A stretch of 6,964 bases of DNA from Pseudomonadota bacterium (GTDB lineage: Bacteria; Pseudomonadota; Alphaproteobacteria; Rhizobiales; Xanthobacteraceae), in assembly GCA_021779635.1 (NCBI GenBank), contig JAJYAH010000366.1:1-6964 (forward strand), written 5' to 3'. Positions 1-6,964 of this stretch are shown here, piece by piece (the first letter of the stretch is position 1; each line of letters begins with the position of its first letter). A program made the translations under genes and the position numbers. The notes beneath the pieces were generated by a model. That model was not told the DNA's origin. It saw only the letters and a list, made by a program, of their open reading frames with translations, and made no database searches.

Positions 1-30
1 CGGGTTTTGCGAGCGGGGTCGCTCAGGGTC

Positions 31-35
31 AGGAG
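31..35 (+). promoter_or_regulatory. Shine-Dalgarno site that sets the sensor kinase start
   Basis: AGGAG at 31-35 is followed by 7 bases and then GTG at 43. This is a near-ideal ribosome binding site and the best reason to start the sensor kinase at GTG 43 rather than at the in-frame TTG at 7, which has almost no upstream sequence in the window to judge. Confidence 0.65.
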
Positions 36-42
36 TGCAAAA

Positions 43-3000
43 GTGGCAGGGCGGCAGCGGATAGACCGCGTCAGGCGCCAATATAATCAATGGGTTGCCA
101 ACCAGACGCTGGAAGATTATGCGCTGCGCTTTACAGCCAAGAGCGCGCGGCGCTGGTCCGCCGCCCGCGTCGCCAACACCGCTCTCGGTGCGATATCGTT
201 CCTGGCGCTTGAGGCGATCGGCGGCACCATCACCCTCAATTACGGCGTCACCAACGCCACCGCGGCTATCCTCGTCGTCAGTGTCATTATCTTTTTCTGC
301 GGTTTGCCGATTGCCTATCACGCCGCCAAATGCGGCATCGATATCGATCTTCTGACCCGCGGCGCCGGCTTCGGTTACATCGGCTCGACCATCACGTCGC
401 TGATCTACGCATCCTTCACGTTCATTTTCTTTGCGATCGAGGCGGTCATCCTCGCCACTGCGCTCGAGATGTGCTTCGGCATCCCGCGCCCGATCGGCTA
501 TCTCGTCAGCGCGGTGGTGATCATTCCACTGGTTACCTACGGCATCACCCTGATCAGCCGCTTCCAGCTGTGGACGCAGCCGCTGTGGATCGTTCTTCAC
601 ATCCTGCCGTTTGCGGCGATCGCCTACGCCAATCCGCATTCCTTTGCGGAGTGGACAAAATTTCCCGGCGAGCATGGCAACCCCAGCGGCCATCTCGATC
701 TGTTGCTGTTCGGAACCGCGGCCTCGGTGGTGTTCGCGCTGGTGGCGCAGATCGGCGAACAGGTCGACTTCCTGCGCTTTCTTCCGCGCGACCGCCGCAC
801 CTCGAAGACCTCGTGGTGGATCGCCCTGGTCAGCGCCGGCCCCGGCTGGATCATTCTCGGCGCGCTCAAACTGTTAGCCGGATCGTTCCTGGCGTTCTTT
901 GCACTGAGCCATGGCGTCTCCGCCGAACATGCCGCCGAACCGGCGCACATGTATCTCGAGGCATTTCGCTATGTGCTGTCGCAACCGGAACTCGCACTGG
1001 CGCTGACCGGCACGTTCGTGATCCTGTCGCAGGTGAAGATCAACGTCACCAACGCCTATGCCGGTTCGATCGCATGGTCGAATTTCTTTTCCCGCCTCAC
1101 CCATAGCCATCCCGGCCGCGTGGTGTGGCTGGTCTTCAACGTGCTCGTGGCGTTGCTGCTGATGGAAATCGGCGTCTACAAGGCGCTCGAACAGACGCTG
1201 GCGCTCTATTCCAACGTCGCCATCGCCTGGGTCGGAGCGCTGGTCGCCGATCTCGTGATCAACAAACCATTCGGCCTGCGTCCGCAACACATGGAGTTCA
1301 AGCGCGCGCATCTCTATGACATCAATCCGGTCGGCGTCGGCGCCATGACCATCGCCACCATCGTCTCGATCAGCGCGTTCTACGGCCTGTTCGGACCGAC
1401 GCCGAAGGCACTGGCCCCGTTCGTCGCGCTGATCGTGGCGTTCGTCACGGCGCCGCTGATCGCATATGCGACCGACGGCAAATACTACATCGCACGCAAG
1501 CCGAAGCGGAGCTGGCAGAATATCGAAGCGATCCAGTGCTGCATTTGCGAGCATACTTTCGAACCCGAGGACATGGCGTCGTGTCCGGCCTATGCCGGGC
1601 CGATTTGCTCGCTGTGCTGCTCGCTCGACGCGCGATGCCACGATCTTTGCAAGCCGCATGCGCGGATCCAGGCGCAGGTCTCTGACACCCTCGGCAAGCT
1701 GCTGCCGACGCCGATCTACGCGCGGATCAATTCGCAACTCGGACACTATATCGGCGTCTTCGCGGTTTCGGCGGGGCTGGTCGGGCTGACGCTCGGCCTG
1801 ATCTATCTGCAGACATCGGCGACGATTCGTGTCGACAATCTGCAGCTATCCGACGTGCTCTGGAAGGTATTCTTCGCGCTCACGATCATCATCGGCGTGG
1901 TCGCGTGGCTGTTCGTGCTGGCGCAGCAAAGCCGTCGCGCGGCGGAGGCCGAAACCAGGCGCCAGACCGCGCTGTTGATACAGGAAATCGACGCGCACAA
2001 GCGAACCGACGCCGAGCTGCAGCGCGCCAAGGAGGTCGCCGAATCGGCCAATCTCGCCAAGAGCCGATATGTCGTCGGACTAAGCCATGAACTGCGCTCG
2101 CCGCTGAACGCCATCAGCGGCTACGCCCAGTTGCTGGAGCAGGATTCAAGCCTGCTTCCGAAGCCGCGCGATCAGGTGCGCGTGGTACGCCGCAGTGCCG
2201 ATCATCTGTCGGGGCTGATCGATGGCATTCTCGATATCTCGAAAATCGAGGCCGGCCGGCTGTATCTGTCGCGGGACGAGGTCCGTCTGAGCGAATTCCT
2301 CGATCAACTGGTCGGAATGTTCCGCCTGCAGGCAGCCGCCAAGGGCATCGATTTCGTTTTCAAGCGGCCGACGGTGCTGCCCTATGTGGTGTTCGCCGAC
2401 GAAAAGCGTCTGCGCCAGATCCTGATCAACCTGTTGTCGAACGCCATCAAATTCACGCAAGCCGGCTGCGTCCAGTTTATCGTCCACTATCGCAGCCCGG
2501 TCGCTGAATTCGAAGTAACCGACACGGGTCCCGGGATTCAGGCAACCGATCTTGAACGCATCTTTGCACCGTTCGAGCGCGGCGCATTGGGCGTCTCACA
2601 GCCGCAAACCGGCACCGGTCTGGGCCTGACCATCAGCAGATTGCTGGCGGGCGTGATGGGCGGCGACATCCAGGTCACCAGCACCGTCGGAACGGGCAGC
2701 ACTTTCCGGGTGAAGATCCTGCTGTCGGAGGTCACCAATCCGACGCGGATTGCGCCGGTCGATGCGCCGGTCTTCGGCTACCATGGCCCGCGCAAAACAA
2801 TCCTCATAACCGACGACGATCCCGTGCATCGCGATCTGCTGCGCGAAGTGCTGACGCCGCTGGGCTTCATCCTGCTAAGCGCGCCGGACGGACCTGGCTG
2901 TCTCGCTCTCGCCCAGCATTGCCGGCCCGATCTGTTTCTGCTCGATATCTCGATGTCCGGCATGGACGGATGGACCGTCGCGGAAACACTGCGCTCGACC

Positions 3001-3414
3001 GGCCACCATCACGCCCGCATCCTGATGGTTTCGGCAAGCGCGCTGGAGGCGCACGGAGCGCCGCTCGCACAGCCGTTTCATGACGGCTATCTGATGAAGC
3101 CGATCGATATTCCAAAGCTGCTGGAGTTGATCCGCCAGCTGCTCAAGATCGAATGGCAATACGAAACCGATCAGGTCGCGGTCCCGCAATGGAAGCCGGA
3201 AACGGGCTCGCGGCCGCATTTCAAGCATATTGAGGAACTCATCAGTCTTGGACAGATGGGATATATTCGCGCGATCCAGATCAAACTCGATGAAATAGGA
3301 GCCGATTATCCCGAACATGCCGAATTCGTCTCACAAATGCGCTTTCTGATCGACCGCTTCGATCTCGATCAGTTCATGGCAACCCTGAAAACCCTGCACA
3401 GCTATGACCACTGA
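43..3414 (+). CDS. Hybrid sensor histidine kinase with N-terminal NCS1-type permease domain and cysteine cluster
   Basis: Predicted membrane sensor of about 1123 residues; numbering is from GTG 43. Residues about 40-485 are hydrophobic, with about a dozen membrane segments. Segments such as TRGAGFGYIGS (105-115) and NVTNAYAGSIAWSN (334-347) resemble NCS1 nucleobase/cytosine permeases. A cytoplasmic-looking stretch (499-539) holds nine cysteines and two histidines. Two more membrane helices (about 569-590 and 609-627) and a charged helical linker lead to the kinase core: H-box with His682 (SHELRSP), N-box Asn800, G1 box DTGPG from 827, G2 box GTGLGL from 857. A receiver domain follows, with acidic residues Asp924-926, phospho-acceptor Asp968, Ser997 and Lys1019, then an unassigned tail of about 85 residues. 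All key kinase and receiver residues are present, so it should autophosphorylate and relay. The permease part could sense a ligand directly or couple transport to signalling; the ligand is unknown. It overlaps the downstream regulator by 11 bases. The reading frame stays open to TTG at 7 as an alternative start. Confidence 0.9.
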   Translation: MAGRQRIDRVRRQYNQWVANQTLEDYALRFTAKSARRWSAARVANTALGAISFLALEAIGGTITLNYGVTNATAAILVVSVIIFFCGLPIAYHAAKCGIDIDLLTRGAGFGYIGSTITSLIYASFTFIFFAIEAVILATALEMCFGIPRPIGYLVSAVVIIPLVTYGITLISRFQLWTQPLWIVLHILPFAAIAYANPHSFAEWTKFPGEHGNPSGHLDLLLFGTAASVVFALVAQIGEQVDFLRFLPRDRRTSKTSWWIALVSAGPGWIILGALKLLAGSFLAFFALSHGVSAEHAAEPAHMYLEAFRYVLSQPELALALTGTFVILSQVKINVTNAYAGSIAWSNFFSRLTHSHPGRVVWLVFNVLVALLLMEIGVYKALEQTLALYSNVAIAWVGALVADLVINKPFGLRPQHMEFKRAHLYDINPVGVGAMTIATIVSISAFYGLFGPTPKALAPFVALIVAFVTAPLIAYATDGKYYIARKPKRSWQNIEAIQCCICEHTFEPEDMASCPAYAGPICSLCCSLDARCHDLCKPHARIQAQVSDTLGKLLPTPIYARINSQLGHYIGVFAVSAGLVGLTLGLIYLQTSATIRVDNLQLSDVLWKVFFALTIIIGVVAWLFVLAQQSRRAAEAETRRQTALLIQEIDAHKRTDAELQRAKEVAESANLAKSRYVVGLSHELRSPLNAISGYAQLLEQDSSLLPKPRDQVRVVRRSADHLSGLIDGILDISKIEAGRLYLSRDEVRLSEFLDQLVGMFRLQAAAKGIDFVFKRPTVLPYVVFADEKRLRQILINLLSNAIKFTQAGCVQFIVHYRSPVAEFEVTDTGPGIQATDLERIFAPFERGALGVSQPQTGTGLGLTISRLLAGVMGGDIQVTSTVGTGSTFRVKILLSEVTNPTRIAPVDAPVFGYHGPRKTILITDDDPVHRDLLREVLTPLGFILLSAPDGPGCLALAQHCRPDLFLLDISMSGMDGWTVAETLRSTGHHHARILMVSASALEAHGAPLAQPFHDGYLMKPIDIPKLLELIRQLLKIEWQYETDQVAVPQWKPETGSRPHFKHIEELISLGQMGYIRAIQIKLDEIGADYPEHAEFVSQMRFLIDRFDLDQFMATLKTLHSYDH

Positions 3415-4333
3415 ATCCAAAAAGCGCGACGTCGCTCTTGTCGTCGATGACTCGCCGGAGACGCTGCGCCTGCTGACCGACGCGCTTGATGGCGCCGGCA
3501 TGACGGTGATGGTCGCCATGGACGGCGCCGCCGCGCTGCGCATCGTCGATCAGATCACGCCGGACATCATTCTGCTCGACGCCGTGATGCCCGGCATGGA
3601 TGGCTTCGAAACCTGCCAGCGCCTCAAACGTGACGCGGGGCTGAGCAACGTGCCGGTCATCTTCATGACGGGGCTGGCGGAGACCGAACACATCGTACGC
3701 GGCCTGGAAGCCGGCGGCGTCGATTACGTGACCAAGCCCATTGTGATCGAGGAGATGCTGGCGCGGATTCGTGTTCATCTGGCCAATGCCAGGTTGACCC
3801 AGAGCGCTCGCGCGGCACTCGATGTGTCCGGGCGATTTCTGCTCGCCGTCAGCCGGCAGGGCAAGATCATGTGGTCAACGCCGCAGGCGCAGAAATTATT
3901 GTCGGACAATCTCACCGCCGGAGCCGAAGATGAACTGGTGCTGCCGGACGCCATGCTGCAATGGCTTGAACAGGCCCAAAAGGTCAAGGCCGGGTCCAAA
4001 ACTCCGGCGATGGCGTCATTTCCCAACAATGAGCAGCTTCGGCTGCAATATATGGGCAAGCTAGGTCCGAATGAATTTCTGCTGCGGCTGGCAAAGGATT
4101 CCAGTACCAATATGCCGGCAGAGTTCAGCAGTGAACTCGGACTGACCACCCGCGAGGGCGAAGTTCTTTCGTGGCTGTCGAAAGGCAAGACCAACCGCGA
4201 CATCGCCCAGATCCTCGGTCTCAGCCCAAGGACGGTAGACAAGCATCTGGAGCAGATCTACGCCAAGCTGGGTGTCGAGAATCGCACCGCCGCCGCCGCA
4301 ATAGCTACCAACGCGACCCGGCGCAATTCATGA
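3404..4333 (+). CDS. Response regulator, receiver + PAS-like + LuxR-type DNA-binding domain
   Basis: A 309-residue transcription factor, very likely the partner of the upstream kinase. The receiver domain (about 9-125) has the acidic pair Asp15/Asp16, phospho-acceptor Asp59 in LLDAVMPGMDG, Thr89 and Lys111 in the TKP motif, so it looks phosphorylatable. Residues about 130-235 (FLLAVSRQGKIMWSTPQAQ and following) look like a small PAS-like fold; this is a weak assignment. The C-terminus (about 245-305) is a LuxR/FixJ helix-turn-helix: LTTREGEVL, then TNRDIAQILGLSPRTVDKHL, then KLGVENR. The ATG lies 8 bases before the last base of the kinase coding sequence stop region, giving an 11-base overlap. 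No clear ribosome binding site precedes it, so translational coupling to the kinase is likely. Its targets cannot be read from the sequence; the carrier-protein cassette next door is a natural candidate. Confidence 0.93.
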   Translation: MTTESKKRDVALVVDDSPETLRLLTDALDGAGMTVMVAMDGAAALRIVDQITPDIILLDAVMPGMDGFETCQRLKRDAGLSNVPVIFMTGLAETEHIVRGLEAGGVDYVTKPIVIEEMLARIRVHLANARLTQSARAALDVSGRFLLAVSRQGKIMWSTPQAQKLLSDNLTAGAEDELVLPDAMLQWLEQAQKVKAGSKTPAMASFPNNEQLRLQYMGKLGPNEFLLRLAKDSSTNMPAEFSSELGLTTREGEVLSWLSKGKTNRDIAQILGLSPRTVDKHLEQIYAKLGVENRTAAAAIATNATRRNS

Positions 4334-4419: not shown

Positions 4420-4716
4420 TCAGGCCGCTGTCTCGAGATTGAGCTGACGGACGATCATCAATTCCAGCGTCCTGATCGACTGGAAATTTTCCGGCGTTAT
4501 CTCGGGCTGCGGTATAGTGAAATCGAACTCGGCTTCGACACCAAGCATCAGATTGACCATATCCATCGAGGTCAAACCGACATCCACCAGTCGCGATTCC
4601 GGATCAACCTGCATGGCAATTGAGTTCTGCTTGAGGATCGCCTCGACGAGAGCGAGGATCCGACCCTGAACGTCGTCGGCGCCAACGGCTTGCATGCGCA
4701 ACTTTCCATTTGTCAT
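4420..4716 (-). CDS. Small acyl/aminoacyl carrier protein, likely partner of the amino acid:[carrier protein] ligase
   Basis: A 98-residue stand-alone carrier protein. The phosphopantetheine attachment site is DVGLTSMDMV with Ser50 as the modified residue. It departs from the usual DSLD motif of fatty-acid carrier proteins but keeps Ser, the following hydrophobic residue and Asp. The acidic character and the pattern of helices around it (Asp14-Asn31 before, Met51-Phe64 and Thr83-Leu94 after) fit a four-helix carrier fold. By family knowledge, such proteins accept an amino acid from a dedicated ligase, encoded here on the other side of the divergent region. It is transcribed opposite to its presumed partners from a shared control region. 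The start is uncertain. ATG at 4716 has no ribosome binding site and sits inside an inverted repeat. ATG at 4695 (residue 8) has GGAAAG six bases upstream and would give 91 residues, still a full carrier domain. Confidence 0.9.
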   Translation of the reverse strand: MTNGKLRMQAVGADDVQGRILALVEAILKQNSIAMQVDPESRLVDVGLTSMDMVNLMLGVEAEFDFTIPQPEITPENFQSIRTLELMIVRQLNLETAA

Positions 4717-4736
4717 CGTGCAACTACGCGCACGAT
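4715..4736 (-). repeat. Inverted repeat covering the carrier protein start codon
   Basis: ATCGTGC, eight bases, then GCACGAT: seven perfect pairs. On the minus-strand message the last two bases of the second arm are the A and U of the AUG at 4716. It could be an operator for a dimeric regulator or, if transcribed, a hairpin masking that start codon. It may equally be chance. Confidence 0.4.
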
Positions 4737-4855
4737 ACCGAACTGAGCATTGAACGTCATATTTAGCGCCGGCGTCGTTTGAAAGGAAGCTAATCTCGTT
4801 TTACGCAAAGCTTCATTCTGTTCTTAACGCTAACGATGATTGCGCCATGGTTTAC

Positions 4856-4890
4856 GCGGTATCTAAAATTGATGGATATCGGAATACCGC
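4856..4890. repeat. Inverted repeat GCGGTAT / ATACCGC in the divergent region
   Basis: Seven-base arms at 4856-4862 and 4884-4890 are separated by 21 bases. The core ATACCG recurs at 4735-4740 next to the carrier protein start, so it may be a repeated regulatory element. Arms of this size and spacing are not rare by chance in a region this long. Confidence 0.3.
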
Positions 4891-4927
4891 AGATTAACTG
4901 TGAACATTGAAATGAAAAGCATTTACG

Positions 4928-4957
4928 TTGATTTTCATCGACGCATTTTAATTAAAT
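4928..4957 (+). promoter_or_regulatory. Possible sigma-70-type promoter for the dehydrogenase-ligase operon
   Basis: TTGATT at 4928-4933 and TTAAAT at 4952-4957 are spaced by 18 bases, in the most AT-rich part of the region and about 100 bases before the dehydrogenase start. Each matches the consensus imperfectly (about four of six for the -10). The TTTAATTAAA palindrome overlaps the -10 element. Weak candidate. Confidence 0.25.
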
Positions 4958-4997
4958 CCCTAGCCTCGAAGCTCAATCAAAAGCAGTTGAGCGATCG

Positions 4998-5016
4998 GTT
5001 GCGATGTTTGTGCAAC
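4998..5016. repeat. Inverted repeat GTTGC-N9-GCAAC upstream of the dehydrogenase
   Basis: Perfect five-base arms about 40 bases before the dehydrogenase start have the size of a dimeric regulator site. The right half overlaps GTGCAACT (5010-5017), which also occurs at 4718-4725 beside the carrier protein start. Confidence 0.3.
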
Positions 5017-5040
5017 TTTATCTCGTACCGGCAAACTCTC

Positions 5041-5044
5041 GAGG
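5041..5044 (+). promoter_or_regulatory. Shine-Dalgarno site of the dehydrogenase gene
   Basis: GAGG lies nine bases before ATG 5054. It supports that start over any other in-frame codon. Confidence 0.6.
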
Positions 5045-5053
5045 TCATCGGCC

Positions 5054-6283
5054 ATGAACGTGCAAGAAGCCAGGTTCCGTAGCTCTGCGGCGGACGAAGC
5101 CAGCGATCAATTCCTTCTCGATCAAAGCTCCTCCTTGGTCCAGCGCACCGCGGCGGTCGCCGCTGCAGCGGCGGCGGATGCCGAGGACGTTGATCGCCAC
5201 GCCCGTTTCCCGAAGGCGGCTATCGACGCCGCACGCGAGCATAAACTTCTGGGAATCCAGATTCCGACCGAGTTTGGCGGATACGGCGCATCAATCTTTG
5301 ATGTCTCCGACACGTGCTACACACTCGGCCGCGCCTGCGCCTCCACGGCCATGATATTTGCAATGCATCAGACCAAGGTTGCTTGCCTGGTCCGACATGG
5401 CACCGGCAGCACCTGGCACGAAATGCTGATGCGCCGCGTCGCGGCCGAACAGTTGTTGCTCGCCTCATCGACGACCGAAGGACAGAACGGCGGCAACATC
5501 CGCTTCAGCGCCGCCGCGGTAGAGCGCGCCGGCGCCGAGATCTCGCTGGTGCGGAACGCCACGGTGATTTCCTACGGCGCAGAAGCCGACGGCATTGTCA
5601 CGATCGCGCGGCGCGCCAACGACGCCGCCGGGTCCGATCAAGTGCTGGTGGCCTTTACCAAAGACAACTACACGCTGGAGCCCAGCCTCGAGTGGGAAAC
5701 GCTCGGCATGCGCGGAACCTGCAGTTCGGGTTTTGAGCTGAAAGCGACCGGTTCGGCCGAGCAGATCTTTCCGGAAGCCTACGAGAAAATCCATGCCCAG
5801 ACGATGACGCCTGTCGCCCACCTGTGCTGGTCTTCGGTCTGGGCCGGGATCGCCGCAGCCTCCGTCGAACGCGCCCAGCTATTCATCCGCAAGGCTGCGC
5901 GCGGATCGGGCGGCCAGATGCCTCCCGGCGCCGCGCACTTTACCGCGGCGAAGATGACGCTGACGAAACTGCGCGCCATGATTACGTCGAGCCTGGATAC
6001 CTATGCGGCCCATGAACATGACGAGCGCGCGTTGAGTTCGCTCGACTTCCAGTCCTCGATCAATCTGCTCAAGGTGGAAGCCTCCGAGCTTGCGGTCGCC
6101 ACCGTCATGAGCGCGATGCGCGCCTGCGGCCTGTCCGGATACCGCAACGACGGCGATTTCAGCGTTGGCCGGCACCTCCGTGACGCCCTTTCGGCGCCCT
6201 TGATGATCAATAACGATCGGATCCTGACCAACATCGCAACCGCAAGCCTGATGAGCGGTGTGCCGGCCAGCCTGCGCGATTAG
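5054..6283 (+). CDS. Acyl-CoA dehydrogenase-like flavoprotein, atypical active site
   Basis: A 409-residue protein with the length and layout of the acyl-CoA dehydrogenase family. The N-terminal helical part (about 1-130) contains LLGIQIPTEFGGYGAS. The middle beta region has the flavin/substrate loop SSTTEGQNGGN (138-148) and LGMRGTCSSGFEL (217 onward). The C-terminal helical bundle runs from about 245 to 400. The usual catalytic glutamate near the C-terminus is missing: where typical members read YEGT, this one reads LMINNDR (383-389), placing Ile385 at that position. The alternative isovaleryl-CoA dehydrogenase position on an earlier helix aligns with Ala255/His256. Alignments were made by eye. 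It probably binds FAD, but may not do ordinary alpha,beta-dehydrogenation of acyl-CoA. Lying 38 bases before the aminoacyl-carrier-protein ligase on the same strand, it likely acts on an amino acid or acyl group held on the carrier protein. Residues 32-42 are alanine-rich. The start is supported by GAGG upstream. Confidence 0.88.
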   Translation: MNVQEARFRSSAADEASDQFLLDQSSSLVQRTAAVAAAAAADAEDVDRHARFPKAAIDAAREHKLLGIQIPTEFGGYGASIFDVSDTCYTLGRACASTAMIFAMHQTKVACLVRHGTGSTWHEMLMRRVAAEQLLLASSTTEGQNGGNIRFSAAAVERAGAEISLVRNATVISYGAEADGIVTIARRANDAAGSDQVLVAFTKDNYTLEPSLEWETLGMRGTCSSGFELKATGSAEQIFPEAYEKIHAQTMTPVAHLCWSSVWAGIAAASVERAQLFIRKAARGSGGQMPPGAAHFTAAKMTLTKLRAMITSSLDTYAAHEHDERALSSLDFQSSINLLKVEASELAVATVMSAMRACGLSGYRNDGDFSVGRHLRDALSAPLMINNDRILTNIATASLMSGVPASLRD

Positions 6284-6309
6284 GCGAAACGGCCCCTTCG
6301 ACAAGCAAT

Positions 6310-6314
6310 GGAAG
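6310..6314 (+). promoter_or_regulatory. Shine-Dalgarno site that selects the ligase start
   Basis: GGAAG at 6310-6314 is seven bases before ATG 6322 but only one base before the in-frame ATG 6316, so 6322 is the better start. The gap after the dehydrogenase stop is short and has no terminator, which fits one transcript. Confidence 0.6.
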
Positions 6315-6321
6315 CATGAAC

Positions 6322-6964
6322 ATGAATGTAGCCATACGAACATCCACATCGGAGGTCACGTCGCTGCCGGTAGACCCGCTGGATCACCTCGCCGGCGCCC
6401 TGTTCCACAAAATGGGTACCGACGGCGTTTATGCCAGAACCGCGCTCTACGAGGACATGGTTGAACGCCTCGCCGCGCTGATCACGCGGCATCGCGAACC
6501 CGACACCGAGGTGATGCGCTTTCCGCCGGTGATGAACCGCGGGCAGCTGGAGAAATCCGGTTATCTGAAAAGCTTTCCCAACCTGCTTGGCTGTGTCTGC
6601 GGTCTGCACGGAACGGAGCGTGAGATCCATTCCGCCGTCAGCCGCTTCGATGCCGGCGGCGACTGGACGACATCGCTCTCCCCAGCCGACCTCGTGCTCT
6701 CGCCGGCGGCCTGCTATCCGGTCTATCCTATTGCGGCGAGCCGTGGTCCCCTGCCCGCCGGCGGCTTGCGCTTTGACGTTGCGGCCGACTGCTTCCGCCG
6801 CGAGCCATCCCGCCATCTCGACCGGCTGCAGTCCTTCCGGATGCGCGAATATGTCTGCATCGGAAGCCCCGATGACGTGTCCGGTTTCCGCGAACGCTGG
6901 ATGGTGCGTGCCCAGGCGATTGCGCGCGATCTCGGCCTGACTTTCAAGGTCGATTACGCCAGCG
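6322..6964 (+). CDS. Amino acid:[carrier protein] ligase, seryl-tRNA synthetase-like, partial (3' end outside window)
   Basis: The frame is open from ATG 6322 to the window edge, giving 214 residues of the N-terminal part. The family uses a class II synthetase active site to make an aminoacyl-adenylate and pass the amino acid to the phosphopantetheine thiol of a small carrier protein instead of to tRNA. Visible evidence: class II motif 2, CFRREPSRHLDRLQSFRMRE (157-176), with Arg159/Glu161 and Arg173/Glu176; Cys131 in SPAACYPVYP; and Glu176. From memory, the B. japonicum structure has zinc bound by Cys131, Glu176 and a later Cys279; the first two match exactly with this start. The third would lie beyond the window. 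There is no room for the long N-terminal coiled coil that normal seryl-tRNA synthetases use to bind tRNA. The described B. japonicum enzymes prefer glycine and an Agrobacterium one alanine; the substrate here cannot be told from the visible part. A true tRNA synthetase is unlikely. Confidence 0.9.
   Translation, partial: MNVAIRTSTSEVTSLPVDPLDHLAGALFHKMGTDGVYARTALYEDMVERLAALITRHREPDTEVMRFPPVMNRGQLEKSGYLKSFPNLLGCVCGLHGTEREIHSAVSRFDAGGDWTTSLSPADLVLSPAACYPVYPIAASRGPLPAGGLRFDVAADCFRREPSRHLDRLQSFRMREYVCIGSPDDVSGFRERWMVRAQAIARDLGLTFKVDYAS

Follow-up and report, generated by a model that had tools for sequence, protein, structure and literature searches.

What becomes of an amino acid once it has been hung on a stand-alone carrier protein, with no assembly line in sight? 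This question is raised by the 3' part of a 6,964-nucleotide stretch (hereafter the window) of contig JAJYAH010000366.1, from an alphaproteobacterium of the Xanthobacteraceae (assembly GCA_021779635.1). A preliminary description made from the letters alone had placed a carrier protein, a dehydrogenase-like flavoprotein and an amino acid ligase around one control region and left the product open. The open reading frames of all three were found where that description had put them:

4420-4716, minus strand: stand-alone aminoacyl carrier protein of 98 residues (Pfam PP-binding, PF00550), with its phosphopantetheine site at Ser50 (GLTSM)
4717-5053, no strand: intergenic region of 337 bases separating the carrier gene from the flavoprotein gene, which are transcribed divergently; from the open reading frame positions
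5054-6283, plus strand: flavoprotein of 409 residues with an acyl-CoA dehydrogenase fold (Pfam; predicted model m3e7edd986e12)
6316-6964, plus strand: N-terminal 216 residues of an amino acid:[carrier protein] ligase (PRK07080), the rest lying past the end of the window

The window probably holds the start of a small-molecule pathway in a Bradyrhizobium-like genome, in which an amino acid, probably glycine, is attached to the carrier and oxidised there. Our overall reading, to which we give a probability of roughly 40%, is that the cassette forms the amino-acid arm of a pathway running on free-standing carriers, with loading, N-oxygenation, transfer by a GNAT-type enzyme and a contribution from a second carrier module.

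The ligase fragment shares 84% of 214 aligned residues with Bll0957 of Bradyrhizobium japonicum (PDB 3mey), and the carrier shares 68% of 91 with aminoacyl carrier protein 1 of PDB 4h2s, which was crystallised with Bll0957; these identities make the pair the orthologue of the known B. japonicum system. Judged by its likeness to Bll0957, the window ligase should aminoacylate the carrier protein, not tRNA. We take Bll0957 to load glycine with ATP on the phosphopantetheine arm of its carrier, loading presumably being the only step characterised in that system. The carrier exceeded the cut-off of Pfam PP-binding (E = 5.4e-6), and it weakly matched PDB 8zt4, 'Carrier protein,GNAT family transferase' (E = 7.6e-6). 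Against the NCBIfam model PRK07080 ('amino acid--[acyl-carrier-protein] ligase'), the ligase fragment scored 286.6 bits over positions 4-219 of 318, the cut-off of 357 bits (PRK07080/NF005479) being set for a whole protein; the ligase of a related genome, G001 (locus L003), scored 477.5 bits over positions 9-316. The window ends before the third zinc ligand of the ligase and before a fourth conserved gene. Cys133 and Glu178 of the window ligase correspond to Cys131 and Glu176 of Bll0957, which we take to be zinc ligands together with Cys279. Equivalents of Cys131 and Glu176 were present in 108 of 108 ligases, and Cys279, the cysteine whose absence the preliminary description had named as refuting its proposal, in all 107 that reach this position; in the window it lies beyond the last base. 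For the enzyme group as a whole, glycine, alanine and serine are given as substrates in a review (PMC9437257).

We then considered how firmly the three genes are held together. A scan of one genome per species returned 170 ligase relatives, and the best 80 of the 170 were kept as related loci; nearly all of them come from Bradyrhizobium or Rhodopseudomonas and are not independent. Carrier, flavoprotein and ligase were present in 80/80, in the same order and orientation each time, which is no matter of chance. At most 79 of these loci are distinct: L030 and L032 lie on one contig of B. japonicum SZCCT0153, about 0.39 Mb apart and in opposite orientation, and are identical over all 20,645 bases, so that the region was either duplicated very recently or doubled artificially during assembly. 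In a wider survey of 398 Pseudomonadota genomes, 28 passed the ligase cut-off and regions were fetched for 27, the 28th being G001, the genome of L003; two of these regions (L139 and L140) come from contigs that, judged by their length, also supplied members of the 80 (L054 and L051). The flavoprotein accompanied the ligase in 27/27 regions and a carrier stood near the cassette in 25/27, four of these carriers having been part of the search model. The conservation of the trio that the preliminary description had asked about was thus borne out. No carrier gene was detected within 2.5 kb of the flavoprotein in the remaining two, L116 and L117, where flavoprotein and ligase are followed directly by MetY and MetA. 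Ligase and flavoprotein distances were correlated across 38 loci (Mantel r 0.92, with 0/2000 permutations as high). A second, distant ligase-like group was also seen, with matches below the cut-off in 16 of the 398 genomes; its proteins are mostly about 400 residues long, and no flavoprotein was found in the seven loci fetched (L118-L124, from six genomes).

The flavoprotein is the candidate for the step after loading. It matched Pfam Acyl-CoA_dh_N (E = 1.6e-13) and Acyl-CoA_dh_1 (E = 1.2e-5), and its predicted model (mean pLDDT 81.5) had the acyl-CoA dehydrogenase fold. The 'Rossmann-fold' redox enzyme named in a 2010 note in proof (PMC2922099) was accordingly set aside as a description of this protein.

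In this superfamily the catalytic base is a Glu, which we take to sit either at the position of MCAD Glu376 or at that of MCAD Thr255 / IVD Glu254. The window protein has Ile385 at the former and Ala255 at the latter, in a register obtained from sequence and profile alignments and not from structural superposition. None of 108 flavoproteins had Glu at either position: the first was Ile in 108/108, and the second was Ala, Ser, Gly, Thr or Cys in 108/108. Because the dehydrogenase base is missing, we think it likelier that the bound amino acid is N-oxygenated than that it is dehydrogenated, and we propose that the flavoprotein is an aminoacyl-carrier-protein oxidase, most likely an N-oxygenase. 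Linkage and co-divergence with the ligase support the preliminary view that it acts next in the pathway; the 'dehydrogenase-like' function attached to it there is probably wrong. In that account, the ligase and carrier assignments stand by orthology, and the product is open as far as the literature could be read. A precedent exists in ChmG, described as a member of the same family with Met in place of the catalytic Glu that N-oxygenates prolyl-ACP in vitro; its authors called it in 2024, to their knowledge, the first flavin-dependent N-oxygenase acting on a carrier-bound amino acid (PMC10849742).

Fold ranking was tried as further proof of an N-oxygenase and was dropped. The top Foldseek rows for the model were 3mxl (a nitrososynthase, the best), 5xdb, 3x0y, 5xdc and 3m9v, so that nitrososynthases, including KijD3, and DszC/TdsC led, by a small margin over dehydrogenases (8.5e-16 vs 6.3e-15). 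VIA-align leaned to dehydrogenases instead, with a true dehydrogenase best, 5z8t tied and DszC 1.7 Z lower; the nitrososynthases that led in Foldseek were absent from the 50 entries it displayed.

The fourth conserved gene of the relatives would fall outside the window. A GNAT-fold acyltransferase of about 290 residues was found downstream of the ligase in 80/80 related loci, at a distance of 8-135 bases in 70 of them and 2.5-2.8 kb in the other 10. Its predicted model matched tandem GNATs (best E = 4.7e-9) and had the GNAT fold; its sequence stayed under the cut-off of Pfam Acetyltransf_1, with no match for the L003 protein and 17.9 vs 20.7 bits for that of L115.

Next, 198 genomes of the family of G001 were searched (GNAT threshold E <= 1e-20). 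The ligase was present in 31, namely 30 over the cut-off and G550, in which the gene is split at contig ends; the GNAT was present in 25 and a protein of the DUF1839 family in six. The 31 ligase genomes comprised 22 with the GNAT, six with DUF1839, none with both and three with neither (G411, G462 and G476), and three further genomes (G440, G506 and G507) had the GNAT without the ligase. In the Pseudomonadota survey, DUF1839 was found in 15/398 genomes, all of which had the ligase adjoining it, with 32-125 bases between the profile matches. A tree of 38 ligases placed all of its 16 DUF1839 loci on one side and all of its 16 GNAT loci on the other with 100/100 support; the six loci with neither enzyme fell one on the DUF1839 side and five on the GNAT side. 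Each of the 15 DUF1839 loci fetched in the phylum survey, and L163 as well, encodes a protein with family-2 glycosidase domains. A tblastn search (E <= 1e-3) of the stretches fetched for the 80 related loci revealed neither DUF1839 nor the glycosidase, and DUF1839 was found in 0/22 family genomes holding both ligase and GNAT; DUF1839 is therefore not expected beside the window's ligase. DUF1839 has been placed among the papain-like families, its triad being Cys-(Thr/Ser)-His, with a guess at acyl-CoA-dependent glycan processing (PMC10318531), and GNATs that take an acyl group from a carrier protein have been described, namely SbzI, SbzC and FeeM (PMC6331615). In our reading, the GNAT and DUF1839 perform the same step, a transfer from or onto the loaded carrier, with different partners.

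A second carrier module emerged as well, made up of another carrier protein (carrier 2), a stand-alone AMP-ligase and a FabG-like short-chain reductase. These three fell within the fetched stretch in 10/80 related loci, joined by a FadD-like ligase in nine of the ten. The trio, the GNAT and the module shared one stretch in L115, L151, L154, L156 and L161; parts of this set, cut by contig ends, were present in L150, L152, L153 and L155, and the trio and module, with no GNAT detected, in L113 and L114. Elsewhere the module stood apart from the ligase, at loci L145-L148 of G001 and G385 (both Bradyrhizobium, to judge by their loci), G036 and G336, and in G001 it was accompanied by a second GNAT copy. 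At a threshold of E <= 1e-60, the AMP-ligase was found in 24/198 family genomes, every one of which had the GNAT (Fisher p 5e-30, a value overstated by the relatedness of the genomes); 22 of these 24 were among the 31 ligase genomes. Since the other two, G506 and G507, keep module and GNAT without the ligase, module and GNAT are bound to each other more tightly than to the trio, which may be only one input among several. The trio pictured in the preliminary description was correct and incomplete: the early end of the window kept both the GNAT and the second module out of sight.

One locus of G507, L157, carries the GNAT, carrier 2, AMP-ligase, reductase, FadD, MetY and MetA and none of the three window genes; it represents either a natural pathway without a glycine arm or an incomplete genome. 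Possible further core parts, each found in the fetched stretches of a minority of the 80 loci, were MetY (18), MetA (16), a class IV aminotransferase (21), a thiamine pyrophosphate (TPP) enzyme (8, four of them over 40% identity) and a cupin (9), and all of these adjoin the cassette in L115.

From the gene content, linkage and residues observed, we infer as follows how each reaction beyond loading would proceed and what would be made. The ligase would use ATP to activate an amino acid, probably glycine, and attach it to the carrier's phosphopantetheine arm, in line with its orthology to Bll0957. The flavoprotein would oxidise the bound amino acid, most likely by placing an oxygen on the amine to give N-hydroxyglycyl-carrier. 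The tandem GNAT would then make an amide or a hydroxamate, either by passing oxidised glycyl on from its carrier to an amine or by acylating the nitrogen of the bound glycine. Carrier 2, the AMP-ligase, the reductase and usually the FadD-like ligase, whose linkage was seen directly, may supply the other half; in the Bradyrhizobium genomes examined this module is encoded elsewhere in the genome, and in other relatives beside the cassette. A bolder version would have a so far undescribed natural-product pathway, widespread in Bradyrhizobium and Rhodopseudomonas, in which glycine is loaded by a ligase derived from a tRNA synthetase and N-hydroxylated by the flavoenzyme, and the tandem GNAT joins it to the acyl group of carrier 2, giving an N-acyl-N-hydroxyglycine (a hydroxamate) or its amide, possibly a metal chelator or signal, with the GNAT and DUF1839 as unrelated recruits to the same step in two clades; taken whole, we hold this version to be rather doubtful.

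Several other explanations were weighed. A true dehydrogenase, forming an imino- or dehydroaminoacyl-carrier in the manner of the prolyl-carrier dehydrogenases and ColB1, would suit the VIA-align result; it is unlikely given the absence of Glu from both base positions in all 108 sequences, and the usual alpha,beta-desaturation requires a beta carbon, which glycine, the probable substrate, lacks. Another alternative sends the oxidised amino acid to the amino group of a cell-surface sugar, as the 2010 note in proof proposed for Agrobacterium-type clusters (PMC2922099). The constant pairing of DUF1839 with the ligase in its 15 genomes and the glycosidase-domain protein in their 15 fetched loci would fit such a transfer, as would the papain-like class of DUF1839, since another papain-like family contains BtrH, which moves an acyl group from its carrier to an aminoglycoside (PMC10318531). 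The window, however, belongs to the GNAT clade, from which DUF1839 and the glycosidase were missing in the searches above, and the AMP-ligase found in 22 of the 31 ligase genomes occurred in GNAT genomes throughout. For the window we consider a surface sugar distinctly improbable.

A further alternative makes the acyl group of the second module the substrate of the GNAT, with unmodified glycyl-carrier as nitrogen donor or acceptor and the flavoprotein acting on something else. The two genomes with GNAT and AMP-ligase and no ligase, and the gene content of L157, speak for such an arrangement. Its prospects are poor nevertheless, because the flavoprotein tracks the ligase and not the GNAT and adjoins the ligase in the DUF1839 clade too; moreover, searches of the stretches fetched for the DUF1839 clade revealed neither carrier 2 nor the AMP-ligase, and those of L157-L160 no flavoprotein. 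Least probable of all, in our judgement, is that a peptide synthetase or other assembly line, encoded at another place, draws on the loaded carrier, the discoverers' first proposal as retold in PMC2922099. In agreement with the preliminary description, no peptide synthetase or polyketide synthase appeared when the five main proteins of the window were scanned against Pfam and NCBIfam; none was noticed among the conserved neighbours, in a comparison that included no search aimed at peptide synthetases or at the rest of the genomes, and the gene that ordinarily follows the ligase encodes an acyltransferase, the GNAT or DUF1839. The N-oxygenase and acyltransferase route remains the one we prefer.

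The 337-base intergenic region is presumed to be a two-way promoter region. Blocks within it were conserved in the four nearest relatives, L001-L004:

4822-4833: conserved intergenic block TCTTAACGCTAA
4938-4959: conserved intergenic block TCGACGCATTTNAATTAAATCC

Among 164 loci, exact copies of TCGACGCATTTNAATTAAATCC were found only in L001-L004 and in L081, a locus of the same genome as L003. In a phaR mutant of B. diazoefficiens under low oxygen, bll0957 and bll0958 are both reported with a fold change of 3.0 and with motif sites upstream (PMC10888616).

The remainder of the window is occupied by a hybrid histidine kinase (1-3414) and, 3' of it, a LuxR-type response regulator (3404-4333). 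By eye, the first ~590 residues of the kinase resemble a multi-pass transporter, Pfam matching the kinase and receiver parts only; such a fused transporter-like sensor is unusual. Both genes adjoin the carrier gene in the window and were rejected as pathway members, as they are not conserved beside the cassette. Among the 80 related loci the kinase had matches in 47 and the regulator in 50 (two weak at 35%, one short), several kb upstream of the carrier, and neither was found in the available flanks of L001-L004.

Parts of this picture have been drawn before. The 2010 note in proof already described the linkage and supposed that the aminoacyl group is altered by the redox enzyme, probably through monooxygenation, so that neither the linkage nor the oxidation idea is new; the product of the ligase pathway was open at that time (PMC2922099), and the biological role was still called unknown in the 2022 review (PMC9437257). 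Relevant to the product were this note, this review and a 2024 proteomics table; no product was named in those portions of the open-access literature that were searched, and our claim of novelty is limited to them. Added here are the finding that the whole family has lost the dehydrogenase base, the alternation of the GNAT with DUF1839 and the second carrier module. With the missing fourth gene, the acyltransferase, and the frequent second module in hand, the product becomes easier to hunt: the GNAT and DUF1839 are candidate acyltransferases for one clade each, and some relatives, L115 among them, encode what is presumed to be the complete pathway within about 13 kb. The N-oxygenase reading is also testable, as it predicts +16 or +14 Da on the carrier and not -2.

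Compared with known systems, the window is closest to Bll0957 and aminoacyl carrier protein 1 of B. japonicum (3mey, 4h2s), its ligase and carrier being orthologous to them. In that system, characterisation is not known to extend beyond loading, and the flavoprotein, GNAT and second module had no assigned role in the literature consulted. The locus tag after bll0957 in B. diazoefficiens, bll0958, is annotated as an acyl-CoA dehydrogenase (PMC10888616), which parallels the flavoprotein gene of the window. The Agrobacterium-type cluster likewise keeps carrier, flavoprotein and ligase together, but it ends in DUF1839 and the glycosidase instead of the GNAT and lies across the 100/100 split of the ligase tree; its DUF1839 may be the 'Atu2574' protein of the 2010 note. 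For that other clade, and not for the GNAT branch of the window, BtrH of butirosin side-chain assembly is an analogue, being papain-like as DUF1839 is; it passes an acyl group from a carrier to an aminoglycoside. The altemicidin enzymes SbzL/SbzG/SbzI, as described, share a GNAT that takes an acyl group from a free-standing carrier, and two carriers with two adenylating enzymes per cluster; they differ in loading enzyme and substrate, and the parts of the source consulted do not mention a dehydrogenase-fold flavoenzyme. In the chalkophomycin set ChmI/ChmJ/ChmG, compared by description only, a free-standing adenylating enzyme and a carrier are again joined by an N-oxygenase of the acyl-CoA dehydrogenase family that has lost the catalytic Glu, whereas the substrate is proline, the adenylating enzyme is of another kind, a second flavoenzyme leads on to a pyrrole and a hydrolase releases the product. 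If our reading is true, the window's flavoprotein family would stand beside ChmG as a further group of N-oxygenases acting on carrier-bound amino acids.

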